A DNA stretch of 64,000 nt, taken from positions 124,001 to 188,000 of the forward strand of contig NZ_JAOYTH010000013.1 in the NCBI RefSeq assembly GCF_025847205.1, written 5' to 3'. This DNA is from Pararhizobium sp. YC-54 (GTDB taxonomy: Bacteria > Pseudomonadota > Alphaproteobacteria > Rhizobiales > Rhizobiaceae). Position 1 is the stretch's first letter. Each line of letters opens with the position of its first letter. The notes under the pieces are model-generated. The model made no database searches, was not told the DNA's origin, and saw nothing but the letters and a program-made list of their open reading frames with translations. Shown in pieces: positions 2,467-43,687 of the stretch. A program made the position numbers and the translations under genes.

Positions 2467-2475
2467 TCGGGAAGG

Positions 2476-3408: not shown

Positions 3409-3413
3409 GAGCC

Positions 3414-24482: not shown

Positions 24483-26380
<1,898 letters not shown>

Positions 26381-26384
<4 letters not shown>

Positions 26385-28282: not shown

Positions 28283-28284
28283 GC

Positions 28285-29283
28285 ATGTTGCGTTACATCT
28301 TCTGGCGCATTCTGGCGATGATCCCGACGCTGGTGATCATCTCCGCGCTGGTGTTCACCATTATCGAACTACCACCTGGCGATTATTTCGAGAGCTACAT
28401 TGCCGAACTTCGCGCCCAGGGCGAAGCTGTGGACACCGCTGAGATCGATGCATTGCGCAAGGAGTACGGCTTCGATCAGCCGCCGGTGATGCGGTATTTC
28501 CATTGGGCGGCAGGCCTGGTGCAGGGCGATTACGGCTATTCCTTCGAGTATCAGCTGCCGGTCAACGAGGTGGTCGGCGACCGTCTGTGGCTGACGGTGC
28601 TGGTCTCGTTCGTCACCATCCTGTTCACATGGCTGATCGCCTTTCCGATCGGCATCTATTCCGCCACCCATCAATACAGCTGGGGCGATTACGGGCTGAC
28701 TTTCCTGGGGCTGATCGGTATCGCCATTCCGAACTTCATGTTCGCGCTGATCCTGATGTATTTCGCCAATATCTGGTTCGGCACCTCGATCGGCCATCTG
28801 ATGGATCAGAAGTATCTGTCCGAACCGATGAGCTGGGAAAAGGCGAAATCGATCCTTGAGCATCTCTGGATACCCGTCCTGATCGTCGGCACGGCGGGCA
28901 CCGCCGGCATGATCCGCCGCCTGCGTGCCAATCTGCTGGACGAACTGCAGAAACAATACGTCGTGACGGCCCGCGCCAAGGGCCTGCATCCGTTCCGGAC
29001 ACTGATGAAATATCCGCTGCGCATGGCACTCAACTTCTTCATCTCGGATATCGGCTCGATCCTGCCGGCGATCATTTCCGGGGCCGAAATCACCGCAATC
29101 GTGCTTTCGCTCGAAACGACCGGACCGATGCTGATAAAAGCGTTGCAAAGTCAGGATATGTATCTGGCCGGCTCGTTCCTGATGTTCCTGGCCTTCCTCA
29201 CCGTGATCGGCGTGCTGATTTCAGACATCGCGCTCGCGTTCCTCGACCCGCGCATCAGACTGCAAGGCGGTAGCACCAAGTGA
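28285..29283 (+). CDS. Peptide-type ABC permease (DppB/YejB-like)
   Basis: Inner-membrane permease of 332 residues: the first transmembrane segment at residues 8-30 (LAMIPTLVIISALVFTIIE), then a periplasmic loop and five more segments. The C-terminal half carries VTARAKGLHPFRTLMKYPLRMAL, the DppB-type EAA loop. It lies 2 bases after the binding-protein gene, and its stop overlaps the GTG start of the second permease. It forms the transport channel with that partner. Confidence 0.92.
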   Translation: MLRYIFWRILAMIPTLVIISALVFTIIELPPGDYFESYIAELRAQGEAVDTAEIDALRKEYGFDQPPVMRYFHWAAGLVQGDYGYSFEYQLPVNEVVGDRLWLTVLVSFVTILFTWLIAFPIGIYSATHQYSWGDYGLTFLGLIGIAIPNFMFALILMYFANIWFGTSIGHLMDQKYLSEPMSWEKAKSILEHLWIPVLIVGTAGTAGMIRRLRANLLDELQKQYVVTARAKGLHPFRTLMKYPLRMALNFFISDIGSILPAIISGAEITAIVLSLETTGPMLIKALQSQDMYLAGSFLMFLAFLTVIGVLISDIALAFLDPRIRLQGGSTK

Positions 29284-30455
29284 CGGTATCCCTTCCCCAA
29301 TCCGGCGAACCGCTTTCGCACTATGTCTCGACAGCACCGTTCGATCCCCATTCCGTCGACGTGATGAGCGAGGAGCAGTCGCGGATCTATCAGGCCTCGC
29401 AGCTGCGGCTGATGTGGTGGAAATTCAAGAAGCACCGGCTTGCGCTGTTTTCCTTGTATTTCCTCGCCTTTCTCTACGCGACCATTGCCATCGTCGAGTT
29501 CCTGGCGCCGTACAATCTACACACGCGCAACGTCGATTTCATCCATTCGCCGCCGCAGCGCGTCCATCTGTTCCATGACGGCAACTTTGTCGGGCCGTTC
29601 GTCTACGGACGCACGATGACACTCGACATGGATACGCTGCGCCGGATCTACACCGAGCAACCGGACAAGGTCGAACCGATCCGTTTCTTCTGCCGGGGCG
29701 ACGGCTACAAATTCTGGGGCCTGGTACAGACCAATATCCATCTGGCGTGCCCGGCCAAGGACGGACAGCTCTTCCTTTTGGGCAGTGACCGCCTCGGCCG
29801 CGACGTGCTGTCACGTATCCTTTACGGAGCCCGGATATCCTTGACCATCGGCCTGCTCGGCATCACCATGAGCTTTGTGCTGGGCATCACCATCGGTGGA
29901 CTTGCGGGCTATCACGGCGGCGTCTTCGACCTGATCGTCCAGCGCATCATCGAGGTGCTGCAATCGATACCGAGCATCCCGCTATGGATGGCGCTCGCAG
30001 CCATCATGCCGGTCACATGGAGCCCGATCCTGATCTATCTCGGCATCACCGCCATTCTCGGCCTGCTCGACTGGACAGGGCTCGCGCGCGCCGTCCGCTC
30101 GAAACTTTTGGCCCTGCGAGAAGAGGACTACGTTCTGGCAGCACAGCTGATGGGCGCCGGTTCGAGCCGCATCATCGGCCGCCATCTCGTCCCCGGCTTC
30201 ATGTCGCATCTGATCGCGACCGCGACGCTGGCGATCCCCGGCATGATCCTCGGCGAGACCGCGCTAAGCTTCCTTGGCCTTGGTCTTCGCCCGCCGATCA
30301 CCAGCTGGGGCATTCTTCTGACCGAAGCCCGCAGCGTCAGCGTCATTGCTTTTTATCCGTGGCTGTTGTTTCCAACCATTCCGGTCATTCTCGTGATTCT
30401 GGCGTTCAATTTCCTGGGCGACGGGCTGCGCGACGCTGCCGATCCGTACAAGTGA
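29280..30455 (+). CDS. Peptide-type ABC permease (DppC/YejE-like) with long periplasmic insert
   Basis: Inner-membrane permease of 391 residues, about 100 longer than ordinary DppC. After the first transmembrane segment (about 60-80) there is a soluble stretch of about 100 residues (NVDFIHSPPQRVHLFHDG to CPAKDGQLFLLG) before GSDRLGRDVLSRILYGARIS, the start of the canonical domain. This long insert is seen in YejE-like permeases. The EAA loop is AAQLMGAGSSRIIGRHLVPGF. The start is GTG at 29280, overlapping the upstream stop. The operon ends here or continues into the glycosyltransferases 72 bases on. Confidence 0.9.
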   Translation: MTVSLPQSGEPLSHYVSTAPFDPHSVDVMSEEQSRIYQASQLRLMWWKFKKHRLALFSLYFLAFLYATIAIVEFLAPYNLHTRNVDFIHSPPQRVHLFHDGNFVGPFVYGRTMTLDMDTLRRIYTEQPDKVEPIRFFCRGDGYKFWGLVQTNIHLACPAKDGQLFLLGSDRLGRDVLSRILYGARISLTIGLLGITMSFVLGITIGGLAGYHGGVFDLIVQRIIEVLQSIPSIPLWMALAAIMPVTWSPILIYLGITAILGLLDWTGLARAVRSKLLALREEDYVLAAQLMGAGSSRIIGRHLVPGFMSHLIATATLAIPGMILGETALSFLGLGLRPPITSWGILLTEARSVSVIAFYPWLLFPTIPVILVILAFNFLGDGLRDAADPYK

Positions 30456-30527: not shown

Positions 30528-31736
30528 ATGACGCGCCGGATCGAGGATGCGCGCATCCTGATGTACAGCCACGACACGTTCGGCCTCGGTCACCTCAGGC
30601 GGTGCCGGACGATTGCGCATTCGCTGGTCGAGGATTATCGCGGCGTCAATATCCTGATCATCTCGGGCGCAACGATCGCCGGTGCGTTCGACTACCGCGC
30701 CCGCGTCGACTTCGTGAAGATCCCCAGCGTCATCAAGCTGCGCAACGGCGAGTACACGTCGATGGACAGGCATATCGACCTGCACGAGACGCTGAAGATG
30801 CGCCGGTCGATCATCCGCCACACGGCCGAGACCTTCCAGCCGGATGTCTTCATCGTCGACAAGGAGCCGATGGGCCTGCATGGCGAAGTCGAGGAGACGC
30901 TCGCTTACCTGAAGAAACAGGGGACAACCCTGGTTCTCGGCCTGCGCGAGGTCATGGACGCGCCGCACCTGCTTGATGCGGAATGGAAGCGCAACGACGT
31001 GATGCGCAAGATCGGCCAGTTCTACGACAGCATCTGGGTCTATGGCCCACCCGATTTCTACGATCCCCTCGTCGGCCTCGACGTTCCACCGGTCGTGCGC
31101 GGCAAGATGGATTTCGTCGGCTTTCTGCAGCGAAGTGTCTCGCAGGATGTCGAATCCGAGCACAAGCCGAAGGGCGACTATATTCTGATCACCACGGGCG
31201 GTGGCGGTGACGGCTCCGACCTGATCCATGATGTGATCGACGCCTACCAGGAAGACCCGACGCTGACGCACAAGGCGCTGATCGTGCTTGGCCCCTACAT
31301 GCCGGTCAAGCAGCGCCACAAGCTTTTGATAAAATGCGCCAAGATCCCCTATCTCGAGGTGATCGAGTTCGACAACCGGATGGAAGAGCTGATTGCCGGC
31401 GCCAAGGGCGTCGTCGCCATGGGCGGCTACAACACCTATTGCGAAATCCTGTCCTTCGACAAGCCGGCCCTGATCGTCCCCAGGGTCATGCCGCGCGAAG
31501 AGCAGCTCATCCGAGCCAGCCGCGCCGCAGAACTTGGCCTGATCGATATGCTTTTGCCGGAGGAAGCGGCCGATCCCCTGCGCTTTGCTGCAGCACTCAA
31601 GGCACTGCCGGATCGCGCCCCGCCCTCCAAGAGCGCCATGGGCATGACGCTCGAAGGGTTGGCGAACATATCGCAGATCGTTGGAGAATGGCTTGGTCGC
31701 CGCGACCACGAGCACCTGACGGTCGTGAAAGGTTGA
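30528..31736 (+). CDS. Glycosyltransferase, MurG-like fold (COG4671 type)
   Basis: Protein of 402 residues of the predicted glycosyltransferase group with a GT-B, family-28-like fold. The N-terminal motif is MYSHDTFGLGHLRRCRTIAHSL; the C-terminal donor-binding region has ITTGGGGDG and GGYNTYCEILSFDKPALIVPR. It would transfer a sugar from a nucleotide donor. The product is unknown. It begins a run of three glycosyltransferase genes (next gene 7 bases downstream). A relative of the same group lies two genes on (32988-34133), so two paralogous enzymes flank a GT4 enzyme. Confidence 0.85.
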   Translation: MTRRIEDARILMYSHDTFGLGHLRRCRTIAHSLVEDYRGVNILIISGATIAGAFDYRARVDFVKIPSVIKLRNGEYTSMDRHIDLHETLKMRRSIIRHTAETFQPDVFIVDKEPMGLHGEVEETLAYLKKQGTTLVLGLREVMDAPHLLDAEWKRNDVMRKIGQFYDSIWVYGPPDFYDPLVGLDVPPVVRGKMDFVGFLQRSVSQDVESEHKPKGDYILITTGGGGDGSDLIHDVIDAYQEDPTLTHKALIVLGPYMPVKQRHKLLIKCAKIPYLEVIEFDNRMEELIAGAKGVVAMGGYNTYCEILSFDKPALIVPRVMPREEQLIRASRAAELGLIDMLLPEEAADPLRFAAALKALPDRAPPSKSAMGMTLEGLANISQIVGEWLGRRDHEHLTVVKG

Positions 31737-31743
31737 GCCTAAG

Positions 31744-32991
31744 TTGACCCAACGCCGCAAGATCGTCGTGGTGCTCAAGGGCTATCCGCGCCTTTCGGAA
31801 ACCTTCATCGCGCAGGAACTGCTCGGCTTGGAAAAGGCCGGTTTTGAACTCGCGCTTGTTGCACTGCGCCGGCCGACGGACAAGAAGCGCCACCCCGTCC
31901 ATGACGAGATCAGGGCTCCGGTCCACTACTTGCCGGAATATCTGCATGAGGAGCCGCTGCGGGTGGCACGCGCGCTGATCACGTGCCTGCCAAAACCGGG
32001 CTTCTGGCGCGCCTTGCCGGCGTTTTTCTCCGACCTTTGGCGCGACTGGACGCGCAACCGGGTCCGGCGTTTCGGACAGGCGATGGTGCTCTCAGTCGAA
32101 TGGCCGGCCGGCGGAAAATGGCTGCACGCGCATTTCATTCACACGCCAGCCTCCGTCGCCCGCTATGCCAGCATGATCAGCGGGACACCCTGGACCTGCT
32201 CGGCCCATGCGAAGGACATCTGGACGTCGCCCGACTGGGAGCTTGCCGGCAAGCTCGCCGACACCCGCTGGACCGTGACCTGCACGCAGACCGGATTTGA
32301 ACAGCTGCGCCATCTTTCCGGCGGCAGGCCGCATGTGCACCTGAGCTATCACGGCCTGGATCTTGGCCGCTTCGGTCCGTTTGACGGCATTCGTCCGGCC
32401 TATGACGGGTCCGATCCCGCAAACCCGGTGACGATCGTCAGCGTTGGCCGTGCGGTCGAGAAGAAGGGTTTCGACATCCTGCTGCGGGCGCTGAGCCTGC
32501 TGCCCGCCGGGCTCAACTGGCGGTTCGTCCATATCGGCGGCGGTGAACTGCTGGAAAAGCTGCAGGCGCTGGCATCCGAACTCGGCATTGCCCAGAAGAT
32601 TACCTGGTACGGGTCCCTGTCGCAGACCGAAGTGCTGCAGCATTATCGCGACGCCGATATATTCGCCCTTGCCTGCCGCATCACCGCCGATGGCGACCGT
32701 GATGGATTGCCAAACGTCCTTGTCGAGGCGTCGAGCCAGGCGCTGGCCTGCATATCGACGAATATTTCCGGGGTGCCCGAATTGCTCGTTGATGGAGAAA
32801 ACGGCTTTGTCGTCCCGCCGGAAGACCCGCAGGCGCTGGCCGAGGCGCTGGCAAAAGCCATCCGCGATCCGGCGCTACGCAAGCGGCTCGGAGAAGCAGC
32901 AGAACGCAAGGTGCGCAGCCAGTTCGATCATCAAACCAGCATCCGCCAGCTGAAAGACCTGTTCGAGACCGAATGGCGGATTGCACCATGA
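31744..32991 (+). CDS. Glycosyltransferase family 4
   Basis: Protein of 415 residues with GT-B fold. The N-terminus VVVLKGYPRLSETFIAQELLGLE is typical of GT4 enzymes of exopolysaccharide synthesis. The C-terminal domain has VGRAVEKKGFDILLRAL, TWYGSLSQTEVLQHYRDAD and the donor-site motif DGLPNVLVEASSQ with the conserved Glu. The start is TTG at 31744, 7 bases after the previous gene; the next possible start (GTG, 31768) would remove part of the first strand. The stop overlaps the next gene's ATG (ATGA), so the three transferases are probably made together. Confidence 0.88.
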   Translation: MTQRRKIVVVLKGYPRLSETFIAQELLGLEKAGFELALVALRRPTDKKRHPVHDEIRAPVHYLPEYLHEEPLRVARALITCLPKPGFWRALPAFFSDLWRDWTRNRVRRFGQAMVLSVEWPAGGKWLHAHFIHTPASVARYASMISGTPWTCSAHAKDIWTSPDWELAGKLADTRWTVTCTQTGFEQLRHLSGGRPHVHLSYHGLDLGRFGPFDGIRPAYDGSDPANPVTIVSVGRAVEKKGFDILLRALSLLPAGLNWRFVHIGGGELLEKLQALASELGIAQKITWYGSLSQTEVLQHYRDADIFALACRITADGDRDGLPNVLVEASSQALACISTNISGVPELLVDGENGFVVPPEDPQALAEALAKAIRDPALRKRLGEAAERKVRSQFDHQTSIRQLKDLFETEWRIAP

Positions 32992-34133
32992 CCGACGGCC
33001 AGAACCGCCCCCCCCGCGCTTTTTTCTACGTCCAGCACCTGCTCGGCATCGGCCACCTTGCCCGCGCCAGCCGCATCGCCCGCGCGCTGGCCGAGGATGG
33101 TTTCGACGTGACAGTGGTGACCGGTGGAACACCGGTGACCGGTTTTCCCGGCCCGCTCGTCCATCATGTCGCCTTGCCGCCGATCACCGCCGGCGATGCC
33201 GGTTTTTCGGGGCTGGCTGACATCGACGGCAAGCCGGTCGATGATGCCTTCAAGGAAAACCGCAAGGAGCGGTTGCTGGCAGCTTTCCGCCAAAGCCAGC
33301 CTGATATCGTCATCATCGAGGCCTTTCCCTTCGGCCGCAGGCAGGTCCGCTTCGAACTCTTGCCGCTGCTCGATACCATTGCCGCGATGGACAGGAAGCC
33401 GCTGGTGGTCACGTCGCTGCGCGATATCCTGCAGGAACGCTCCAAGCCCGGCCGCGACGAGGAAACGGTCGCACTGGTGAAGCAATATTTCGACCGGGTT
33501 CTGGTCCATGGCGATCCGGCCTTTGCCAGGCTGGAAGATACCTTTCCGCTGGCCGCCGAGATCACCGGCAAGGTGATCTATACCGGGCTGGTGGCAGCCC
33601 CGGCCCCCGCGCAACCAACCGAGTGTTTCGACGTCATCGTCTCGGCCGGCGGTGGTGCGGTCGGCAATGCCCTGATCCGTGCAGCACTTGAGGCCGCAAA
33701 GTCGATCGGCAAGCCTTTGTCCTGGGCACTGATCACCGGTCCCAACCTGCCGCAGCCGGATTTCGACGCAATCCTAGCCGATGCTCCCGCCCAGGTCAGC
33801 GTCTACCGCTTCCGCCCCGATTTCGCCAGCCTGCTGGCCGGCGCCAGGCTGTCCGTGTCACAGGCGGGCTACAACACCGTTTGCGACATTCTGCGCGCCG
33901 GATGCCATGCCCTGCTTATCCCCTTCACCGCCGGCGGTGAAACCGAGCAGACCGTCCGGGCCGAGCGTCTCGAAAAGCTTGGGCTGGCACATGTCCTGAC
34001 TGAAGACGACCTGTCGGCTGACAGTATGACACGGGCAATCGATAAAGCGCTCGCGGCAACAGACCGGCCGCCCCACAGCCTCGATCTTGACGGCGCACAT
34101 CGCACCGCCGAAATTCTGCGCGGGCTGATCTGA
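32988..34133 (+). CDS. Glycosyltransferase, MurG-like fold (COG4671 type), second copy
   Basis: Protein of 381 residues (386 if the ATG at 32973 is used). The start at 32988 is preferred because it forms an ATGA overlap with the GT4 stop. The N-terminus FFYVQHLLGIGHLARASRIARALAE parallels the HDTFGLGHLRRCRTIAHSL motif of the gene at 30528. The C-terminal donor site has VSAGGGAVG and SQAGYNTVCDILRAGCHALLIPF. It is paralogous to that gene but quite diverged, which suggests two different sugar linkages. It is convergent with a methyltransferase gene 7 bases downstream. Confidence 0.85.
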   Translation: MTDGQNRPPRAFFYVQHLLGIGHLARASRIARALAEDGFDVTVVTGGTPVTGFPGPLVHHVALPPITAGDAGFSGLADIDGKPVDDAFKENRKERLLAAFRQSQPDIVIIEAFPFGRRQVRFELLPLLDTIAAMDRKPLVVTSLRDILQERSKPGRDEETVALVKQYFDRVLVHGDPAFARLEDTFPLAAEITGKVIYTGLVAAPAPAQPTECFDVIVSAGGGAVGNALIRAALEAAKSIGKPLSWALITGPNLPQPDFDAILADAPAQVSVYRFRPDFASLLAGARLSVSQAGYNTVCDILRAGCHALLIPFTAGGETEQTVRAERLEKLGLAHVLTEDDLSADSMTRAIDKALAATDRPPHSLDLDGAHRTAEILRGLI

Positions 34134-34140
34134 TCGTCGA

Positions 34141-34818
34141 TCAGACCGTGCCGATCACCATGAAGCGGGTATATTTCTTCATCTTCAGCGACCCGGCAAA
34201 GGCCACCTGGCTGAGCGACGTCTGCTCCCGGAACGCCTCCAGCGACGGCACGCAGTTGATGTGGGTCGGCTCGCTGAAATAGTCGTTCGACTGCAGGAGA
34301 ACCTTCGTGCCGCGCGGCAGCAGCGAAAGCCATGCCGGAAGATCGGCAATGTGTTCGCAACTGGTGTTGATGACGAGATCCGCACCGCGGGTACCGTAAT
34401 CGAGCGCGTACATATCCTGCGTCACCGTGCGAAAATGCGCACCGGCCCTGGCATTCAGCGTTTCGGCGATTTCACCGACCTCCGGGTCGATATCGATGCT
34501 CTCGAATAGCTCGATGTCGAAGCGGCCGTCATCGAAAAACATTGCCGGAAGCACGCCATACCAGCCGCCGAGCAGGACGATGTGTTTAAATTTTCCGCCA
34601 AGGCTTTCAAAAAGCTTTTCGCGCGCCCATATCTTGCTTCCAACCTGCTTGTGGTTGAAGGCCGTGCCGAGGTCCGCGTCCGGATATTTGGCGATAACTT
34701 TTGCAAGGCCTTCTATCAGAGAGCTTCCCGTATAGGCGGAAAGACCGCGGATAATATCGAAGGCATTCTCGTGCCAATCTGTTGTGTTTGCTTCGTTTGG
34801 TCGGGTGGTTTTCATCAT
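34141..34818 (-). CDS. Class I SAM-dependent methyltransferase-like protein
   Basis: Protein of 225 residues with a Rossmann methyltransferase pattern: HIVLLGGWYGVLPAMFF (about residues 79-95) in place of the usual glycine-rich loop, ELFESIDIDPEVGEIAETLN (acidic ribose-binding residue), then GADLVINTSCEHIADLPAW. It is oriented against the surrounding run of genes. I cannot name the substrate. It is divergent from another methyltransferase-like gene with only 38 bases between the starts. Confidence 0.72.
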   Translation of the reverse strand: MMKTTRPNEANTTDWHENAFDIIRGLSAYTGSSLIEGLAKVIAKYPDADLGTAFNHKQVGSKIWAREKLFESLGGKFKHIVLLGGWYGVLPAMFFDDGRFDIELFESIDIDPEVGEIAETLNARAGAHFRTVTQDMYALDYGTRGADLVINTSCEHIADLPAWLSLLPRGTKVLLQSNDYFSEPTHINCVPSLEAFREQTSLSQVAFAGSLKMKKYTRFMVIGTV

Positions 34819-34856
34819 GCGCGTGTTGTAGTCTGGACTTTTCTGGAGTGCAAGGA

Positions 34857-35456
34857 ATGCAAGTCAACCTGAAGGATGCCGTCTCCGATCTACCGCCGTT
34901 GGAGGCGGGAAAGGATATACCGCATCTGGCAGGACTGGGCGCAACGATGCGGCAGGTCTTCGCCGCCCACTTCATGCGCGACTGCCCGCATATCCTGGAA
35001 ATCGGCGGCCATATCCGGCCGGTCACCCCTTATCTCACCCATCATCCGCTGTCGGTCACCTCCGTCGATCCGAAAACCGAGGCTTACGAGGCAAACGAAC
35101 TGAACGGAAAACAATGCCATGTGCGGCATATTGCGGCGAAGTTCCAGCAGATCGACTATCACTACCAACCGGGAAGCTACGGCCTCGTCCTGCTCGGCTA
35201 TTCGCTGAAACCGTTCGGCCGCAAGGATCCGCTGGGCGACCTCCTGTTCTCGCTGATCGAAAACGCCAAAACGGTCGTGATCGAATATGCGCCCGAACTC
35301 GAACGCGCCGCCTCCCAGGTGCCGCATATCGTCAGCCGTCCGGCCGTCAGAATCCGGGGACAGTTCGATCTTCATCTGCACGACCCGGAGATCGCCGGCA
35401 CGCCTTACGCTGCCCGGCGCTTCTACGTCCTCGACACCCGCTACACGGCCAGTTGA
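34857..35456 (+). CDS. SAM-dependent methyltransferase-like protein of unknown function
   Basis: Protein of 199 residues. The core ILEIGGHIRPVTPYLTHHPLSVTSVDPKTEAYEAN (about residues 46-80) resembles the SAM-binding glycine loop and acidic strand end of class I methyltransferases, and YGLVLLGYSLKPFG follows where motif IV would be. The rest is not recognisable. The ATG at 34857 has GGAG at 8 bases; an in-frame start at 34782 would overlap the divergent gene and is less likely. It is 8 bases upstream of the degenerate ABC gene, so probably co-transcribed with it. Confidence 0.65.
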   Translation: MQVNLKDAVSDLPPLEAGKDIPHLAGLGATMRQVFAAHFMRDCPHILEIGGHIRPVTPYLTHHPLSVTSVDPKTEAYEANELNGKQCHVRHIAAKFQQIDYHYQPGSYGLVLLGYSLKPFGRKDPLGDLLFSLIENAKTVVIEYAPELERAASQVPHIVSRPAVRIRGQFDLHLHDPEIAGTPYAARRFYVLDTRYTAS

Positions 35457-35464
35457 ATCCACCC

Positions 35465-38182
35465 ATGGAAAAAAACATCGCCCGCTACATCTGGACCCAC
35501 ACCAAAGGCCAGCAGCTCTGGATCCTTCTGGTCGTCGCCGTCTCGATGATCCCCTACTTCCTGTCGTTCGACCTGCCCAAGCAGATCGTCAACGGGCCGA
35601 TTCAAGGCGAGGGCTTCGACCAGCCGGGCGCCACCCAGCTGTTCATGAACATCAGCTTCGACCTGCCCTGGCTCGGAACCGTGACGCTCTTCGACGGTGT
35701 CGAACTGACCCGCATGCAGACCCTGTTTGCGCTGAGCATGGTCTTCCTGCTGCTGGTCATCATCAACGGTCTCTTCAAGTTCTACATCAATACCTACAAG
35801 GGCCGGCTCGGCGAACGCCTGCTCCGGCGCATCCGCTTCGAGCTCGTCGACCGGATCCTGCGTTTTCCGCCAAGCCAGTTCAAGCGCATGAAGGGTGCGG
35901 AAGTCTCCAGCATGGTCAAGGACGAGGTCGAGCCGCTCGGCGGCTTTACCGGCGATGCCTTCGTCCAGCCTGCGCTGCTCGGCGGGCAGGCATTGACGGC
36001 CCTGTTCTTCATCTTCATGCAGAATACCTGGCTCGGCGTGATCGCGGCCGTGATGGTCGGCGTCCAGGCCGTGATCATTCCCCGTATGCGCCGGCGCCTG
36101 CTGGTGCTCGGCCGCGAACGCCAGATCACCGCCCGCGAACTTGCCGGCCGCGTCAGCGAGATCGTCGACGGCATCGGCACCATCCATGCCTATGATACGT
36201 CGAATTATGAGCGCGCCGACATCGCCTCGCGCCTCGGCCGCATCTTCAAAATCCGCTACGACCTTTATCAGTGGAAATTTCTGGTCAAGTTCATCAACAA
36301 CTTCCTCGCCCAGCTTACCCCCTTCCTGTTTTATTGCATCGGCGGCTATCTGGCGCTGCAGGGCCGTCTCGACATCGGTCAGCTGATCGCCGTGATCAGC
36401 GCCTACAAGGACCTGCCCGGCCCCTTGAAGGACCTGATCGACTGGGATCAGACCCGCCAGGACGTCCAGGTGAAATATGTCCAGGTGGTCGAGCAGTTCA
36501 GTGTCGACAGAACGATCGATCCCTCCATCCAGGCCGTTGCCATCAAGGACGCCGGTTCGATCAAACATCCGCTGGCAGCGGTCAACCTGTCGCTGGCAGA
36601 CGATAGCGGCGCCAAGCTTCTCGAGCGCGTGTCGGTACAGATCCGCCCCGGCGAGACCGTTGCCATCGTCGGGGGTGCCGCCGGCGGCGGCGAAATGCTG
36701 GCGGAAGCCTTTGCGCGCCTCACATGGCCGGAGAGCGGCAAGGTAACGGCCGGCGGCGACGATCTTCTGGAACTGCCCGAATCCGTGACCGGTCGCGCCA
36801 TCTCCTATGTTTCGTCCGATGCCTACTTCTTCTACGGCACCTTGCGCGACAACCTGCTTTACGGCCTCAAGCATGCGCCGCTGCAGGACGCCGTCTACGA
36901 GGGCAGCGGTGCCGCGCATCGCAAATGGCAGATCAACGAGGCACGATTGGCTGGCAATCCGGATTACGACGTCAACAGCGACTGGATCGACTATACCGCC
37001 GCCAACGCGACGAACCGCGACGATCTTTTCGCGCCGGTTCTCTCGGTGCTCGATACGGTTCAACTGTCGAAAGATATTCTCGATCTTGCCCTGCGCAGCA
37101 TCGTGTCTCCGAACGAGCATCCGGGTCTTGCCGAGGGTATCGTCGAGATGCGCCATGCGCTTCGCGACGAGCTGGAAGAGGCAGGCCTCAGCAGCCTCGT
37201 CGTCTCCTTCGAGCCCGGCGCCTACAATACCGAGGCGACGGTCGGCGAAAACCTCTTGTTCGGCACCGCGACCGGCCCGGCGCTCATCGGCAAGGCGATC
37301 GGCAAGAACGCCTATTTCCGTTCCGTCATCGGCCGCTCCGGCCTCGATCGCATCATGTTCGACATGGGCTACAGCATTGCCGAGAACGCGGTCGAACTGT
37401 TCTCCGACCTGCCGCCGGATCATCCGTTCTTCCAGCAGCTGACCTTCATGACCGCGGATGACATTCCCGAATACCAGCTGCTGTTGCAGAAGCTGAAGGG
37501 CAAGGGTTTTGACGCGGCGTCCGAGGATGACCGCGGACAGATCATTCGCCTGAGCTTCCGCTACATCGAACCGCGGCATCGTTTCGGTCTTCTGACCGAC
37601 GAACTGATGGCGAAGATCGTCGATGTCCGCCGTCAATTCCATGAAGGGCTGCCGGAAGAAATGCGCGGCGATATCGAGCGCTACGATCCGGAGCACTATC
37701 AGGCGTCGGCAAGCCTGATGGACAATATCCTGTTCGGCCGCATCAGCCACAAGCATACCGACGGATCCAAGCGTATCCGTTCGATCGTCAGCTCGCTTCT
37801 GAACTCACTCGGCCTTCTGGAGCGCGTGATCGATATTGGCCTGGATTTCAATCTCGGCGCCGGCGGCAAACGGCTGACGGCGGTGCAGCGGCAGAAGCTC
37901 AATCTGGCACGTGCCCTGGTCCGCCGGTCCGATTATTATATCTTTAACCGGCCGCTGCCCGGCCTCGACCACCGCCTCCAGGACGAAATCGTCCGCGATG
38001 TCTTGAAGCTCGTACGCCGTGACGGGCGCGATCCGGCCATCGTCTGGGTGCTCTCGAATACCGCACTTTCCAGCCTGTTCGACCGCGTCCTCGTCTTCGA
38101 CAGGGGCTTGCTTGTGGAAGAAGGCACACCTGCGGCGCTGGCCGAGAATAACGGTATCTTTAAGGAGCTTGTGTCATCATAA
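35465..38182 (+). CDS. ABC-exporter-like protein with degenerate ATPase domain and large insert
   Basis: Protein of 905 residues. Residues about 1-330 are an exporter-type transmembrane domain (hydrophobic segments near 15-35, 85-105, 175-215 and 280-305, with the LGERLLRRIRFELVDRILRFP coupling region). The C-terminal part is ABC-ATPase-like, but every catalytic motif is altered. Walker A reads VGGAAGGGEM (about 400) with no Lys-Ser/Thr; the Q-loop is SYVSSDAYFF; the signature is LTAVQRQ (about 803); Walker B is YYIFNRPLPGLD (about 824). About 290 extra residues separate the Q-loop region from the signature. Three similar segments are visible: GTLRDNLLYG (about 459), ATVGENLLFG (about 591) and SLMDNILFG (about 750). 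It is unlikely to hydrolyse ATP alone; a regulator, scaffold or flippase partner is possible. A cyclic-nucleotide-binding gene follows. Confidence 0.8.
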   Translation: MEKNIARYIWTHTKGQQLWILLVVAVSMIPYFLSFDLPKQIVNGPIQGEGFDQPGATQLFMNISFDLPWLGTVTLFDGVELTRMQTLFALSMVFLLLVIINGLFKFYINTYKGRLGERLLRRIRFELVDRILRFPPSQFKRMKGAEVSSMVKDEVEPLGGFTGDAFVQPALLGGQALTALFFIFMQNTWLGVIAAVMVGVQAVIIPRMRRRLLVLGRERQITARELAGRVSEIVDGIGTIHAYDTSNYERADIASRLGRIFKIRYDLYQWKFLVKFINNFLAQLTPFLFYCIGGYLALQGRLDIGQLIAVISAYKDLPGPLKDLIDWDQTRQDVQVKYVQVVEQFSVDRTIDPSIQAVAIKDAGSIKHPLAAVNLSLADDSGAKLLERVSVQIRPGETVAIVGGAAGGGEMLAEAFARLTWPESGKVTAGGDDLLELPESVTGRAISYVSSDAYFFYGTLRDNLLYGLKHAPLQDAVYEGSGAAHRKWQINEARLAGNPDYDVNSDWIDYTAANATNRDDLFAPVLSVLDTVQLSKDILDLALRSIVSPNEHPGLAEGIVEMRHALRDELEEAGLSSLVVSFEPGAYNTEATVGENLLFGTATGPALIGKAIGKNAYFRSVIGRSGLDRIMFDMGYSIAENAVELFSDLPPDHPFFQQLTFMTADDIPEYQLLLQKLKGKGFDAASEDDRGQIIRLSFRYIEPRHRFGLLTDELMAKIVDVRRQFHEGLPEEMRGDIERYDPEHYQASASLMDNILFGRISHKHTDGSKRIRSIVSSLLNSLGLLERVIDIGLDFNLGAGGKRLTAVQRQKLNLARALVRRSDYYIFNRPLPGLDHRLQDEIVRDVLKLVRRDGRDPAIVWVLSNTALSSLFDRVLVFDRGLLVEEGTPAALAENNGIFKELVSS

Positions 38183-38292: not shown

Positions 38293-38766
38293 ATGGGCAC
38301 GACTATGCTTCTGAAGGATGAAGTTCAAATGCTGCGGCGCGTGCCGCTGTTTTCGAATGTAGAGCCGGGCAAGCTGAAGCTTCTCGCGTTCACGTCCGAC
38401 CGTGTCAGTTATGATCCGGGTGAGGCCATCTTCCATCAGGGCGATACCGGCGACGCGGCCTATGTCGTTTTGGCCGGCAAAGCGGACATCCTGGTCGATT
38501 CCTCGACCGGCCCGATCAAGATCGCCGAGGTCGAAACCAATTCCATCGTCGGCGAGATCGCCATCCTCTGCGACGTTTCGCGAACCGCGACCGTACAGAC
38601 GACGACACCGCTGGAGGCCCTGCGCATCCGCAAGGAGCACTTCCTCAAGCTGCTCACCGATTTCCCGGAAATCACCATCGAGATCATGCGGGTGCTGGCC
38701 GATCGCCTGAGCCATACGACAAGCGAATTGTCGGAAGCCCGCAGCCGCGCGCGCAAGACGGATTGA
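38293..38766 (+). CDS. Stand-alone cyclic-nucleotide-binding domain protein
   Basis: Protein of 157 residues consisting of a Crp-like cyclic-nucleotide-binding domain without a DNA-binding domain. The phosphate-binding cassette is complete: VGEIAILCDVSRTATV, with the Glu and Arg that contact cAMP or cGMP. FSNVEPGKLKLLAF and FHQGDTGDAAYVVLAGKADI are the usual N-terminal blocks, and a helical C-terminal tail follows. It must act through a protein partner, and the degenerate ABC protein encoded 110 bases upstream is the obvious candidate. An alternative ATG lies at 38305; the GGGGA site is very close to 38293. Confidence 0.9.
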   Translation: MGTTMLLKDEVQMLRRVPLFSNVEPGKLKLLAFTSDRVSYDPGEAIFHQGDTGDAAYVVLAGKADILVDSSTGPIKIAEVETNSIVGEIAILCDVSRTATVQTTTPLEALRIRKEHFLKLLTDFPEITIEIMRVLADRLSHTTSELSEARSRARKTD

Positions 38767-38814: not shown

Positions 38815-40578
38815 CTACCCCGGCACATTTCGGGTGATCGCCCCGTTCGTGCGGTCTATGCTGAAATTGCGTGAAGGCAGGCCGCCGGCGTATTTCCTAA
38901 ACATCCGGAAGATCAGCGCGAACCGCGCCTGCGCCGAGCCGGCATCGCTCCAACCGCCATTCGCAAACAGCTGCCCGACCGCCCGGTACAGCGCCAGCCG
39001 CTCCGGCGCGATCCAGTCGAACGCCAGTTCGCTGCCCATCCGTAGCCGGTACCAGTCGGCCAGAAACGCCATCGCGGAAATGCCCGTAAGCCCTGCACTG
39101 TCAAGCCCCGCTTCCGTCAGGAGCTGCCGCACGCCGGGATCGTTGCGGGCCGCAGCGATTGCAGCGACAGCATCTCCCGCTGCAACCGGTTCATCGATCA
39201 GCGCCAGTGCCGCGAGGTCCGCAACATCGAGACTGCGGATCATTGCCGCAATCTCCTTCGGCCATTCACGCTTGAGATAGCGCCGCCCGACCAGATGACC
39301 GATATGCGTAAACAGAAAGCCACCATAGTCGGTGACATCGAGCATACCGCCGGCATCGAGCCGCGACGGCACGATCTCGCGGTCATAGGCCAGCCGCAAA
39401 TCGTCGTTGAGCGGCATCGCATCGATCCCGACCGTCTCGATATCAATGTGCTGCTCGCCGATAGTGAGAACCTTGTAGGCTCCCGGGAAGGCAACGAGAG
39501 ACGGCATGGCCACGTTGATCAGGAAGCGCCCGTCATCGTCGTGGCGCGCCGTATCGTTGACATGCAGATGCCCGCTGAAGTGAATGTCGATGCCCGCCGC
39601 GATCAGCGCCTTGGCAACACCGGCCTGTGGAATGCGCTCCACCATGCCCGTCCGGCCAAGCAGCGCCACCTCGTCATCGAGCGTGCCATCGAGCGGATCG
39701 AGAACAGGATAATGTGAAAACGCCAGCAGGCATTTGCCCTCAAGGCGCGCACGCCGGGCAACATCCGCCATCCAGTCGAGAACGAACCGCTTGTGAACGA
39801 GCATCGCGTTCCAGCCGGCGCTGGTGCTGTCGGCAAGATCGCCCTCGTCGCCCGGCGCCACGCCATCGGCGGGAACGAAAACATTGGCGTCGATCATCAG
39901 CAGCCAGACGCCGGGGAAAGGCTCGACGAGATAGGAGGCGTCCATCAGCCTGCGTGTGGTTTTTCCATCCGGCGAATGGACCTCATAAAGCCGCGCTGCC
40001 GGATCGCCATCCGCACCGAACGGCGTTTCCCAGTGAAGATCGCCTGGCCTTGGATAAAAGCCGAAATCCGCCATGGCTTCGAGCCCATCCGGATAGCCCT
40101 GGCAATACATGCGCTTGCTGGCGATGACCGCATGCGCGCCGCGGTCGCGCAGATGCGGGTCGCTGCTGAGGATGCTGTAGCCGCCGTCCTCGTTGAGGAA
40201 GCGCTTGGCGCGGTGACGTCCATCCGCCCCGAAAATATCGTGATTGCCGGTGGTGGCATAAAACCGCATGCCGAACCGCGCCGCATAGCTGTCGAGCACC
40301 CGTTTCACACCCCTGACGGTCTCCACCTGTCCGTCGTCGGAATAATCGCCCAGCAGCACCACATGGCGGATGCCGCGTTCAGCGATATCGTCAAGCGCGT
40401 GATGGAATGCGAAATAGCTTTCGTTGAACACCCGCGTCGAGCGGGCCGTATCGGCCAGCAGCCTGAACGTCAGCCGCCGTTCGTCTTGAACGATGCCGGC
40501 AAAGCCATAATCGGCATACAGATCGTGAAAATGCGCGTCGGCGATAACGGCGATACGCGGGTGCTTCAGGGACGGCAT
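38815..40578 (-). CDS. Metallophosphoesterase, 587 residues
   Basis: Calcineurin-like phosphoesterase. The full metal-ligand series is visible: DAHFHD (Asp14, His16), GDYSDDG (Asp78), GNHD (Asn112, His113), FSHYP and GHLH in the central part. The catalytic domain covers about residues 1-390; the remaining 200 residues are helical and unassigned. Family members include cAMP phosphodiesterase CpdA, acid phosphatases and UDP-sugar hydrolases. With a cyclase and a cyclic-nucleotide receptor nearby, cyclic-nucleotide hydrolysis is a reasonable but unproven guess. It is convergent with the binding-domain gene and divergent from the MBL gene (228-base gap). Confidence 0.87.
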   Translation of the reverse strand: MPSLKHPRIAVIADAHFHDLYADYGFAGIVQDERRLTFRLLADTARSTRVFNESYFAFHHALDDIAERGIRHVVLLGDYSDDGQVETVRGVKRVLDSYAARFGMRFYATTGNHDIFGADGRHRAKRFLNEDGGYSILSSDPHLRDRGAHAVIASKRMYCQGYPDGLEAMADFGFYPRPGDLHWETPFGADGDPAARLYEVHSPDGKTTRRLMDASYLVEPFPGVWLLMIDANVFVPADGVAPGDEGDLADSTSAGWNAMLVHKRFVLDWMADVARRARLEGKCLLAFSHYPVLDPLDGTLDDEVALLGRTGMVERIPQAGVAKALIAAGIDIHFSGHLHVNDTARHDDDGRFLINVAMPSLVAFPGAYKVLTIGEQHIDIETVGIDAMPLNDDLRLAYDREIVPSRLDAGGMLDVTDYGGFLFTHIGHLVGRRYLKREWPKEIAAMIRSLDVADLAALALIDEPVAAGDAVAAIAAARNDPGVRQLLTEAGLDSAGLTGISAMAFLADWYRLRMGSELAFDWIAPERLALYRAVGQLFANGGWSDAGSAQARFALIFRMFRKYAGGLPSRNFSIDRTNGAITRNVPG

Positions 40579-40806: not shown

Positions 40807-41637
40807 GTGAACGAAAACGTGTTTCGGGTGCGGTTATGGGGTGTGCGTGGCAGCCTCCCGGTCTCGGGGGCCGAGTTCCAGAATTATGGCGGCAACACCA
40901 TCTGCATCGAAATGCAATGCGGACCCCATAGGCTATTGTTCGATGCCGGCTCCGGCTTGATGCCGGCCGGCCAGGCGCTGAAATCCGAAGGCGCTTCCGA
41001 TTTCAACCTGTTCTTCACCCACTGCCATTACGATCATATCGTCGGCCTGCCCTATCTGCCGGCACTGTTCGATCCGCACGCATCGGTGACCTTGTGGTCC
41101 GGGCATCTGGCCGGGCGCATGTCCACCCGCCAGATGATCGGCGAGTTCATGCGTCCACCGTGGTTTCCCGTCGAACCGGACATCTGCCGCGCTTCGATCA
41201 ACTGCCGCGACTTCCGCTCCGGCGACGTGCTCGTCCCCTATCCGGGCGTGGCGATCAGGACCGGCAGCCTCGATCATCCCGGCGGCGCGATCGGTTACCG
41301 GGTCGAATGGGGCGGCCGCGCCGTGGCGCTGATTACCGACACCGAGCATAAACCGGGCACGCTCGATCCCGCCGTTCTCGACCTGATCGATGGCGCCGAT
41401 CTCTTCCTCTACGATTGCATGTATACCGACGAGGAGATGCAGCGCCATGTCGGCTATGGCCATTCCACCTGGCAGCAGGCCATACGGCTTGCCAAGACGG
41501 CAAAGGCCAAGCAGGTCGCCTTCATCCATCATTCGCCGCTGCGTACCGACAGCGAACTCGATGCCATCCAGCGGCTTGCCGAGCGGGATTTCGGCGGCGC
41601 CTTCACCGCCCGCGACGGTCAGGTGATCGACCTCTGA
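40807..41637 (+). CDS. MBL-fold metallo-hydrolase
   Basis: Protein of 276 residues with the metallo-beta-lactamase fold. It has HCHYDH (His72, His74, Asp76, His77), the later Asp in ITDTEHKPG and a C-terminal His in IHHSPL; the N-terminus VRLWGVRGSLPVSG is followed by YGGNTICIE. This subgroup is close to PhnP/RNase Z-like phosphodiesterases and often stands beside signalling genes. A phosphodiesterase acting on a cyclic nucleotide or a modified nucleotide sugar is possible. The start is GTG at 40807, directly in front of the conserved first strand. Confidence 0.85.
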   Translation: MNENVFRVRLWGVRGSLPVSGAEFQNYGGNTICIEMQCGPHRLLFDAGSGLMPAGQALKSEGASDFNLFFTHCHYDHIVGLPYLPALFDPHASVTLWSGHLAGRMSTRQMIGEFMRPPWFPVEPDICRASINCRDFRSGDVLVPYPGVAIRTGSLDHPGGAIGYRVEWGGRAVALITDTEHKPGTLDPAVLDLIDGADLFLYDCMYTDEEMQRHVGYGHSTWQQAIRLAKTAKAKQVAFIHHSPLRTDSELDAIQRLAERDFGGAFTARDGQVIDL

Positions 41638-41649
41638 GAAAACTGGAGT

Positions 41650-42396
41650 TCACTGCCCCCGCAGGATATCCGCAACCGGGGTCCAGCGGCAGGCTGGATG
41701 ACGCGCCGTCACCTCAAACAAGGCGCTCATGAAGTCCCAGACGGCTTCGTCATGGACCAGATGATGCGTTAAAAGCCCCATCGTTCCGCCATTGTCGAAC
41801 ATGTGCCTCAAGCGCGCGGCGATCTCGACGGCCAGCGCCTGCGGATCACGCCCGCCCCGCGTTCCGTGCCAGTCCATGACATCAACATGCGTATTGATCA
41901 GCGGCAGGGCAGCCGGCTTTTCCGGCCCGTAGACCGACAATGCCTGATAGCCCAATACGGCCAGATGCGGCACAAGCCCGGCATCGATCCGGTTCCAGGG
42001 CGGCACGAGCATCGGCACGAACCGTTCTCCGTGCAGTCCGGCGAGGCGATCAAACCCCTGTTTCAATTCGGCAAGAACGTCCGCCGCCGCGCGGTGCCCC
42101 CCAAGCTCCTGCTTCTTTTCATCAGGGCCTGCATGGTTGCGGTGCGACCATCCGTGGACGGTGACGGAACACGATGGTTCCTGCCGCAACCTTTCGGCAA
42201 GTGCCTCGCCGGTGTAGGCAGGAATAACCGCCAGTGTCAGCGGCACGGAAAATGTCGCCGATATGTCCAGCAACCGGTCGAGCAGCGCGGTCGGCTCGAC
42301 GGCGTCGTCATCGCGCAACCAGAACTGCGCGGCCTTGCCTGCCTGTTGCCAGCGATCCAGTTCGCCTGCAATCACGCTTTCGAAATCATCCATCAT
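41650..42396 (-). CDS. Polysaccharide deacetylase-family protein
   Basis: Protein of 248 residues with NodB-homology-like features: WLRDDDAVEP (acidic metal or catalytic pair, about residue 27), LTLAVIPAY, the HGWSHRNHAG motif supplying metal-binding His residues, and PPWNR and TH..VDVMDWHG further on. It would remove acetyl groups from a GlcNAc-containing glycan. The start ATGATG at 42396/42393 overlaps the end of the GT4 gene by 11 bases, indicating coupling. No signal peptide is visible, so it may act in the cytoplasm on a precursor. Confidence 0.85.
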   Translation of the reverse strand: MMDDFESVIAGELDRWQQAGKAAQFWLRDDDAVEPTALLDRLLDISATFSVPLTLAVIPAYTGEALAERLRQEPSCSVTVHGWSHRNHAGPDEKKQELGGHRAAADVLAELKQGFDRLAGLHGERFVPMLVPPWNRIDAGLVPHLAVLGYQALSVYGPEKPAALPLINTHVDVMDWHGTRGGRDPQALAVEIAARLRHMFDNGGTMGLLTHHLVHDEAVWDFMSALFEVTARHPACRWTPVADILRGQ

Positions 42397-43501
42397 GTCG
42401 TGCCCGCTTGAGATATTCGTCGAGAATGGTGCCGAGCCGCGCCGACGCCTGGCCGAGCGAACGGTGCTCGCACGCAAACGGTCTTGCCGCGCGGGCAAGC
42501 GCCATACGGTTTCCATCGTCCGTCAACAGCCGTTCGATGGCCTGCGCATAGGCATCAATGTCGCCCGGCGGTGTCAAAAGGCCCGTGCGCCCGTGCACCA
42601 CCACCTCCGGCACGCCGGCGATCTCCTGCGCGACGACAGGCAAACCGGCCGCCTGTGCCTCAAGGTAAGCCAGGCCATAGGCCTCGCCGCAGCCGGGCCA
42701 GACATAGAGCGCCGAGCGCGACAAAAGATCGGCGATCACGGCAGCCGGCTGTTCGCCGTGCCAGAGTATCCGGTCCTTGTCGAAGCCTGAAAACAGCGAC
42801 CGCACCTCGGCGGCACGCGGACCGTCGCCAACGACAGACAATTGCCACGGCAGATGGGTCAGCCGCGACAGGGCATCGGCCAGCATGACGTAGCTGTCCA
42901 TCTTGTCGCCCGACCGCATCATCGCCACGGTGATCAACCGGCCGGGTTCCGGCATCGGTTGCCTGTCGCGAAACAATGCCGGGTCGATGAAAGGCGGCAA
43001 TACAGCAAGCCGCGCGCCGGGCGCCGCGGCTGCAAGCCCGTCAAGATCGCGCTGTGTGAAGCAGATATTCACAGATGCCTGCCGCACCGTTTCCAGCACA
43101 TCCTGCTGCATCTTTGCCCATAGCCCGGTATTGCGCCGCGCGGAATAGGAGGCCTCCGCCGTCACGTAACCCAGGTTGAATTCACGGGCGAGCGATGGCC
43201 CGATCAGGTCGGGCGCCTTGTAATAGGGGTGGTAGCAAAACCAGACATCCGGCGCACCACCTTCTCGCCCACCGCGCTCTCGCCACAGCGCCGAAAGCCG
43301 CGCCCGCTCAGCGTCCGCTGCAGACCGTACCTCCATCGCATCAACCGAAGCATCCGGCAGGAAGGCCCGCAACTCCGAGGCGATCTCCACCTGATGCCCC
43401 GCCCTGGCCAAGGCCGCCATCAGCAGACGCGCCATCAGGCGGTCGCCGGAGGGAACGGGGTGGTTGGGGGATTTGAGCGGACTATAGAAAGCGATCTTCA
43501 T
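42386..43501 (-). CDS. Glycosyltransferase family 4
   Basis: Protein of 371 residues, GT-B fold. The N-terminus MKIAFYSPLKSPNHPVPSGDR has the glycine/serine acceptor loop; the C-terminal donor domain has LSVVGDGPRAAEV, ILWHGEQP and EAYGLAYLEAQAAGLPVVA, including the conserved Glu pair of GT4. It is coupled to the deacetylase gene by an 11-base overlap, so the pair probably makes and trims an N-acetylated sugar. The ATG at 43501 gives normal GT4 length; the in-frame ORF to 43765 crosses the neighbouring operators and is rejected. Confidence 0.9.
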   Translation of the reverse strand: MKIAFYSPLKSPNHPVPSGDRLMARLLMAALARAGHQVEIASELRAFLPDASVDAMEVRSAADAERARLSALWRERGGREGGAPDVWFCYHPYYKAPDLIGPSLAREFNLGYVTAEASYSARRNTGLWAKMQQDVLETVRQASVNICFTQRDLDGLAAAAPGARLAVLPPFIDPALFRDRQPMPEPGRLITVAMMRSGDKMDSYVMLADALSRLTHLPWQLSVVGDGPRAAEVRSLFSGFDKDRILWHGEQPAAVIADLLSRSALYVWPGCGEAYGLAYLEAQAAGLPVVAQEIAGVPEVVVHGRTGLLTPPGDIDAYAQAIERLLTDDGNRMALARAARPFACEHRSLGQASARLGTILDEYLKRARHDG

Positions 43502-43648
43502 CGGATGCGGTTCTAGAACATAGCACCGCCGTTGGGAACCTGTGCCGCCGCATCGATTTGCAACCGACCCGAAGCCTTGCGCTGTTTGTCGCCAAACTCG
43601 CTCCTTCCCACCCGCAAGCGCGGAATGGTTTCTCACGATGCAATGCAA

Positions 43649-43666
43649 AATAAAAACGTTTTTATT
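43649..43666. promoter_or_regulatory. LacI-type operator, perfect 18-bp palindrome
   Basis: AATAAAAACGTTTTTATT is a perfect palindrome with central CG, 66-83 bases upstream of the LacI gene at 43732. A second copy lies 21 bases on, centre to centre. Confidence 0.75.
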
Positions 43667-43669
43667 ATC

Positions 43670-43687
43670 GTTGAAATCGTTTTTATT
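43670..43687. promoter_or_regulatory. Second LacI-type operator, tandem half-conserved copy
   Basis: GTTGAAATCGTTTTTATT matches the adjacent palindrome at 14 of 18 positions; its right half is identical. The 21-base spacing puts both sites on the same helix face, favouring cooperative binding. TTGAAA (43671-43676) within it could be a -35 element, with a poor -10 (TACGAG) 17 bases on. Confidence 0.6.

Follow-up and report, generated by a model that had tools for sequence, protein, structure and literature searches.

A conserved exporter-like protein of Alphaproteobacteria with lost ATPase motifs and linkage to a cyclic-nucleotide-binding domain

In the sulfonylurea receptors and CFTR, the fold of an ATP-binding cassette (ABC) exporter has been turned into a regulator or a channel. 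These proteins still bind ATP at at least one site, unlike what we propose here for a 905-residue exporter-like protein of Pararhizobium sp. YC-54, and we know of no linkage of theirs to cyclic-nucleotide-binding domains such as the one described below. The gene of this protein was delimited by its open reading frame (ORF), Pfam matches and the lengths of its homologues. It lies at positions 35465..38182 of the window, the whole 64,000-nucleotide stretch that was analysed (contig NZ_JAOYTH010000013.1, positions 124,001 to 188,000), on the forward strand, as do all features below unless stated otherwise. In our reading, to which we give a probability of roughly 0.5, the protein would be a conserved pseudo-ABC exporter, acting as a membrane switch whose driver is a cyclic nucleotide and not the hydrolysis of ATP, and which controls surface glycan in the window's lineage. 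This reading is based on lost catalytic motifs, purifying selection, an internal duplication, linkage or fusion to a cyclic-nucleotide-binding domain, and linkage to cyclase and glycosyltransferase genes.

The nearest precedent found, as far as the accessible part of its report goes, is HetC of Nostoc PCC 7120, likewise an ABC exporter with a cyclic-nucleotide-binding-type domain required for function (PMC10986499). Unlike the window protein, HetC keeps an essential ATPase and possesses a C39 peptidase, and its domain is N-terminal and binds guanosine tetraphosphate (ppGpp). No C39 peptidase domain was detected in the 905-residue protein, where a Pfam search (E up to 1) yielded only ABC_membrane and ABC_tran. 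Its best NCBIfam match is MsbA (TIGR02203, 158.8 bits). With MsbA/ABCB-type exporters it shares the exporter membrane domain (PF00664); however, its score is far short of the 602 bits that the MsbA model requires, and the model does not place it among the lipid A exporters; its catalytic motifs are lost, and about 297 residues are inserted. NHLM bacteriocin exporters (TIGR03796) are also matched (1.6e-39), but at 135.8 of 853.3 bits and thus below the cut-off. Similarly, the adjoining protein encoded at 38293 resembles the bacteriocin-type transport-associated proteins of TIGR03896 (3.9e-12), but with 46.2 of 161.05 bits remains below the cut-off. TIGR03796 exporters and TIGR03896 proteins occur together. 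As in Pycsar systems, a cyclase and a cyclic-nucleotide-binding partner are encoded together at this locus; in contrast to Pycsar, the membrane partner is exporter-like and kept across genera among glycan genes.

The ORF at 35465-38182 runs through 905 residues without a stop. Its mechanical start is at 35114; the start at 35465 is supported by homologue lengths and by the gap of 8 bases that it leaves after the preceding gene. An earlier note on this DNA had described an exporter transmembrane domain as kept, and this was borne out: the domain (approximately residues 1-345; 35465..36499) matched ABC_membrane over residues 87-312 (1.1e-21; 78.2 bits, cut-off 28). The first part of ABC_tran was matched at residues 386-485 (39.3 bits, cut-off 25), and over the C-terminal part of its nucleotide-binding domain (NBD; approximately residues 793-903, 110 residues) the protein matched the second halves of NBDs from structurally solved exporters. 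Conservation within the family is highest in the membrane domain, where 66 of the first 330 alignment columns reach at least 90%, compared to 5 of 101 and 7 of 116 columns in the two NBD halves. Judged by its sequence, the 905-residue protein is an ABC exporter by descent.

Alignment with canonical exporters revealed that every catalytic position checked is changed in the window protein, as the earlier note had claimed for its ATPase motifs. In Walker A (residues 403-410, GGAAGGGE; 36671..36694), the lysine is replaced by G409 and the Ser/Thr by E410. The Q-loop glutamine is S451, the two glycines of the ABC signature (residues 804-810, LTAVQRQ; 37874..37894) are A806 and V807, and in Walker B (residues 824-830, YYIFNRP; 37934..37954) N828 stands for the aspartate and R829 for the catalytic glutamate. 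The H-loop histidine is S864. Thus, Walker A GK[ST], the signature [ST]GG[QE] and a Walker B Asp with a catalytic acidic residue are all missing from the window protein, which has GGE, TAVQ and N-R instead. Among the 121 closest proteins, the window's own included, N828 is invariant and none carries Lys at position 409 (Gly in 78, Ala in 43).

We then considered 330 members, defined as insert-bearing proteins of at least 800 residues. None of them combined GK[ST], [ST]GG[QE] and Walker B D[ED]; two of these motifs occurred in 3 members, one in 24 and none in 303, with GK[ST] present in 3, [ST]GG[QE] in 16 and D[ED] in 11. The Mg-binding Ser/Thr was replaced by an acidic residue in 304 of the 330. 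When seven catalytic features were scored in 90 non-redundant members, 43 kept none, like the window protein, while the P-loop Lys was retained in 27, a Glu at the catalytic position in 23 and the H-loop His in 13. Homologues with intact motifs, the case that would have refuted the earlier interpretation, were thus not seen among the 330, as no member has all three, but 3 of 330 have two and 27 of 90 keep the P-loop Lys. Motif loss is complete in the window protein and graded across the family. The loci keeping two motifs are L153, L154 and L156; L153, with GKS and D-E and no signature, is the most nearly intact of the family, and the L153 and L154 copies (also seen as L187 and L188) are fused to a cyclic-nucleotide-binding domain. 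Members in L062, L065, L066 and L138 are broken across frames in the assemblies, by frameshift or sequencing error.

Nei-Gojobori ratios of nonsynonymous to synonymous substitution (dN/dS) were calculated against 15 chosen orthologues of 83-96% identity. They ranged from 0.046 to 0.116 for the whole gene and were at most 0.145 in every region, the pseudo-NBD included. The gene, its pseudo-NBD part included, is therefore under strong purifying selection and not decaying, and together with the stop-free frame this agrees with the earlier description of an intact gene. The insert was matched in 131 of 385 genomes of the class, counting the window's own. A phylum-wide draw of 398 genomes gave 31 matches, all 31 of them in the window's class, and a reach beyond the class was accordingly rejected. 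Carriers include Rhizobium, Pararhizobium, Phyllobacterium, Mesorhizobium, Agrobacterium, Sinorhizobium, Azospirillum and Ruegeria, and among them are laboratory organisms such as S. meliloti 2011. The family is apparently widespread and uncharacterised; no description of it was found in the searched literature, which covered titles and abstract openings and left most subscription journals outside.

The three segments resembling the post-Q-loop motif were located as previously claimed. Copy 1 (residues 458-467, GTLRDNLLYG; 36836..36865) stands at canonical spacing, 60 residues from Walker A, which is also the distance in L003, a canonical exporter encoded in this genome. Copies 2 (residues 591-600, ATVGENLLFG) and 3 (residues 750-758, SLMDNILFG) follow, and from copy 3 to the signature there are 50 residues compared to 44 in the canonical exporter. 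The extra residues, about 297 by hand count and previously given as about 290, therefore lie between the copies of the post-Q-loop motif. The motif Asn was kept in 89, 90 and 90 of the 90 non-redundant members for copies 1, 2 and 3, respectively.

Duplication was assessed by hhalign on non-overlapping profiles of residues 535-640 and 690-850, with 60 column shuffles and a reversed profile as controls. A first unit (residues 552-637; 37118..37375) containing copy 2 aligned with a second unit (residues 711-794; 37595..37846) containing copy 3 over 84 columns at a probability of 99.0 and a score of 103.6; the shuffled maximum was 22.2 (0 of 60) and the reversed profile scored 18.6. The region of copy 1 gave alignments of only 23 and 31 columns with the other two; their probabilities were 54 and 66 and their scores 27.8 and 30.0, compared to maxima of 19.5 and 18.0 after shuffling (0 of 60 each). 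On this evidence, the duplication behind copies 2 and 3 is real and copy 1 is supported as a short motif only; the profiles support a repeated unit with the Q-loop motif at its core. Compared to a canonical NBD profile, the insert matched in the motif region alone, at 17% probability, and it gave no matches to solved structures up to E 10. The suggestion of an internal duplication thus stands for copies 2 and 3, while extra NBD folds, whole or as two or three partial ones, are unsupported by these profiles.

Directly downstream of the exporter gene lies the gene of a stand-alone cyclic-nucleotide-binding protein of 157 residues (38293..38766; Pfam cNMP_binding, 4.6e-19). Its PF00027 domain contains the phosphate-binding motif G-E...R[TSA][AV], here VGEIAILCDVSRTA, and is predicted to be a binder; its matches among solved structures include regulatory subunits of protein kinase A as well as SthK. 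No C-terminal DNA-binding domain of the Crp/Fnr type was detected in the 157 residues (Pfam, E up to 1). One S. meliloti record labels the ortholog a Crp/Fnr regulator. Across 140 exporter loci, an ORF with such a domain was found directly downstream on the same strand in 114, as a C-terminal fusion in 14 and elsewhere in 6. Of the 14 fusions, 8 were scanned with Pfam, and PF00027 was confirmed at the C-terminus of all 8. In the tree, the 14 fused rows fall into a single clade (Shimodaira-Hasegawa-like approximate likelihood ratio test support 95, from a quick search with long-branch warnings), and several independent fusions were rejected on the basis of this tree. The searched motif was present in 120 of 134 domains. 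Owing to this linkage and fusion, the tie between the exporter and its neighbour that the earlier note had suspected is now strong. In the record of a Ruegeria member, the exporter protein is named after the cyclic-nucleotide-binding domain.

A class III nucleotide cyclase (22873..24222; Pfam Guanylate_cyc, 5.3e-8) is encoded at the head of the same-strand gene run. A profile seeded from nine related-locus ORFs, all matching Guanylate_cyc, detected cyclase ORFs at 39 of the 142 loci, 38 of them on the same strand. At the density of this genome (23 per 6.24 Mb), the 2.04 Mb examined would contain about 7 to 8; the figure of 39 is, however, not an independent count, because many of the loci are relatives of one another, nine of them supplied the profile, and the reach of the flanks varies between loci. 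In L136 and L201 the fused gene is immediately preceded by the cyclase gene, in the same orientation. In the linked cyclases of L125, L194, L195 and L090, a 2Fe-2S ferredoxin domain immediately precedes the catalytic domain, which suggests that the cyclic-nucleotide signal receives a redox input. The fused member in L187 has an ion channel (Ion_trans, 3.8e-41) and an Apyc1-like metallo-beta-lactamase (6.7e-29), of a family known to cleave cyclic nucleotides, encoded directly upstream (2061-3880).

Together these genes are part of a larger block. Its order is a DUF3095 protein, a nucleotide-sugar dehydrogenase, the cyclase, an oligopeptide-type ABC uptake system identified by family matches (double-NBD ATPase, SBP_bac_5 protein and two permeases; 24483..30455), three glycosyltransferases (Pfam, NCBIfam; 30528..34133), two small methyltransferase-like or unknown genes, the exporter and the cyclic-nucleotide-binding protein. 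The first small gene (34141..34818, reverse strand) resembles Methyltransf_25 with an E of 0.0037, below the cut-off. The second (34782..35456), directly upstream of the exporter gene, overlaps the first by 37 bases and has no Pfam match up to an E of 1. The order is kept in four genomes of the same genus, the stretch of one of which (L241) ends before the cyclic-nucleotide-binding gene, and on pSymB of S. meliloti 2011 minus the second small gene. By annotation, the block is also present on pRL3b4 of R. leguminosarum, where both small genes are missing. Of 60 loci across the class, 31 have neighbouring glycosyltransferase genes of the kinds present in the window, all 31 among the 46 unfused loci. 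The general trait is thus the cyclic-nucleotide-binding partner; a location among glycan genes is one setting, and a common one. In S. meliloti, the cAMP (cyclic AMP)-dependent regulator Clr activates genes for succinoglycan as well as genes from a polysaccharide cluster on pSymB, although its effect may be indirect (PMC5498481). As far as the accessible part of that report goes, these data fit cAMP-linked surface glycans, and no gene there is identified as a gene of the exporter block.

Further features surround the block. The DUF3095 gene near the cyclase (20079-21257; 446 bits) was found near the block in all four same-genus genomes and in S. meliloti. In five of five further rhizobial genomes it lies beside the deacetylase-glycosyltransferase end; no paper in the searched literature names DUF3095. 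A calcineurin-like phosphoesterase (38815..40578, reverse strand; Pfam) is variably present in related loci between the cyclic-nucleotide-binding gene and a metallo-beta-lactamase gene, and degradation of a cyclic nucleotide is a candidate role. At 40807..43672, Pfam and related loci point to this metallo-beta-lactamase-fold protein, followed on the reverse strand by a polysaccharide deacetylase and a family 4 glycosyltransferase.

In the mechanism that we propose, an ABCB/MsbA-like membrane domain would be joined to an NBD that no longer looks capable of ATPase activity and that is enlarged by a duplicated segment at the boundary of Q-loop and helical subdomain. In ordinary exporters, this boundary is the contact of the NBD to the membrane domain. 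The adjoining cyclic-nucleotide-binding protein or, in one clade, the C-terminally fused domain would provide the input. The linked cyclase would make the cyclic nucleotide, which would bind this domain; the ligand-bound domain would then dock on the pseudo-NBD and determine which conformation the membrane domain adopts, a role that falls to ATP binding in ordinary exporters. The glycosyltransferases encoded nearby would make a surface glycan, and in the window's lineage the switch would most likely control its handover or passage. The absence of ATPase activity, the nucleotide binding, the docking, the conformational control and the glycan role are all what we infer from the sequences. Only tentatively do we suggest that the family consists of exporters with an exchanged driver, in which a cyclic nucleotide on a partner or fused domain might replace ATP and the duplicated pseudo-NBD segments might serve as docking surface, making a ligand-gated, ATP-independent conduit that is common in Alphaproteobacteria.

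Several observations weigh against this reading. The cyclic-nucleotide-binding gene was absent from the stretch in 6 of the 140 loci, and in one more the nearest was 884 bases away. The searched phosphate-binding motif was missing in 14 of the 134 domains, 7 of which belong to fused proteins. As these make up half of the 14 fused proteins, that half of the clade may have a different ligand site. Gene linkage is no proof of physical contact between the two proteins, and the cyclase-bearing loci, being related, do not count as independent. In the accessible part of the HetC report, the N-terminal domain binds ppGpp and protection by cAMP was not significant (PMC10986499), so that the ligand here may not be a cyclic nucleotide. 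Four of the 90 non-redundant members, all distant ones, keep four of the seven catalytic features, the maximum seen, and distant members of this kind might bind nucleotide. Finally, none of the 14 fused-clade loci has glycosyltransferase neighbours of the window's kinds, and the glycan role therefore cannot be general.

The chief rival is a pure scaffold, in which the membrane domain carries nothing and anchors glycosyltransferases and the cyclic-nucleotide sensor at the membrane. The sulfonylurea receptor, a regulatory subunit of its channel, offers a parallel; no energy source is visible in the protein, and glycosyltransferases adjoin the exporter gene in 31 of 46 unfused loci. We nevertheless regard this explanation as doubtful, since the conservation of the membrane domain exceeds the needs of an anchor and the fused members are without such glycosyltransferase neighbours. 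It is unlikely that the protein is still an ATP-driven exporter, working through an unusual site of its own or as a heterodimer with an intact exporter, although least so for the distant members. The catalytic residues retained in part of the family would fit such an activity, and intact exporters of the genome could act as partners in trans. Against it stand the loss of all seven catalytic features in the window protein and in 43 of 90 members, as well as the acidic substitution of the Mg-binding Ser/Thr in 304 of 330. An ATPase formed with an adjoining exporter partner was rejected: no other exporter-like ORF was found in the 142 loci, the two matches being the S. meliloti orthologues themselves.

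We consider it very improbable that the block is a Pycsar-like antiphage module, in which infection would activate the cyclase and the cyclic-nucleotide-binding partner would open the membrane protein. A cyclase, a cyclic-nucleotide-binding domain and a membrane protein do share one gene block, and PADLOC matched the cyclase to PycC (4.9e-16) and the cyclic-nucleotide-binding protein to PycTIR (5.5e-16); the fused member of L187 matched the same cyclic-nucleotide-binding models, plus mads_3 and mads_8 over its NBD parts. However, the matched domains are common to many proteins, the window exporter and the metallo-beta-lactamase protein gave no PADLOC match, and the gene lies within a block conserved across genera with glycan genes and not in a variable island. 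A decaying pseudogene would fit the loss of all motifs but is rejected by the dN/dS values, in any region, and by the presence of the insert in about a third of the class genomes, leaving it practically no probability.

A published phenotype might bear on the switch that we favour. On pSymB of S. meliloti, loss of the exporter gene msbA2 is harmful only while the upstream glycosyltransferase genes remain (PMC12239276), and SMb20813 is given as the msbA homologue (PMC10945364), as stated in the accessible parts of these reports. Because the S. meliloti ortholog of the window exporter also has glycosyltransferases upstream, we examined the identity of msbA2; if it were this ortholog, a symbiotic phenotype would already be in print. 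pSymB encodes six ABC_membrane exporters. The MsbA profile scored 508 bits at 599950-601617, 358 at 1165857-1167467, 334 at 941443-943023 and 115 at the ortholog of the window exporter (841727-844435). The 941 kb exporter is an ordinary one directly behind a family 2 glycosyltransferase and an acyltransferase, which fits the description of msbA2, and the 599 kb exporter lies near KpsF-like, pyruvyltransferase and sulfotransferase genes. From profile scores and neighbours, msbA2 is unlikely to be the ortholog and more likely to be the 941 kb or the 599 kb exporter. Locus tags of the SMb2125x-2127x range did not occur in the accessible parts of the papers concerned.

ABC exporters are the textbook case of ATP-driven transport. 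This family is large and conserved, has lost the catalytic motifs, retains a strongly constrained membrane domain and is tied to a cyclic-nucleotide sensor, and it therefore offers a natural test of whether a ligand other than ATP can switch an exporter fold. For its genes, database labels like 'ABC transporter ATP-binding protein' are misleading. Second-messenger signalling in cyclase-rich rhizobia and their relatives, with 23 cyclases in the genome studied here, thereby gains a candidate target that is located at the membrane and is not a transcription factor.

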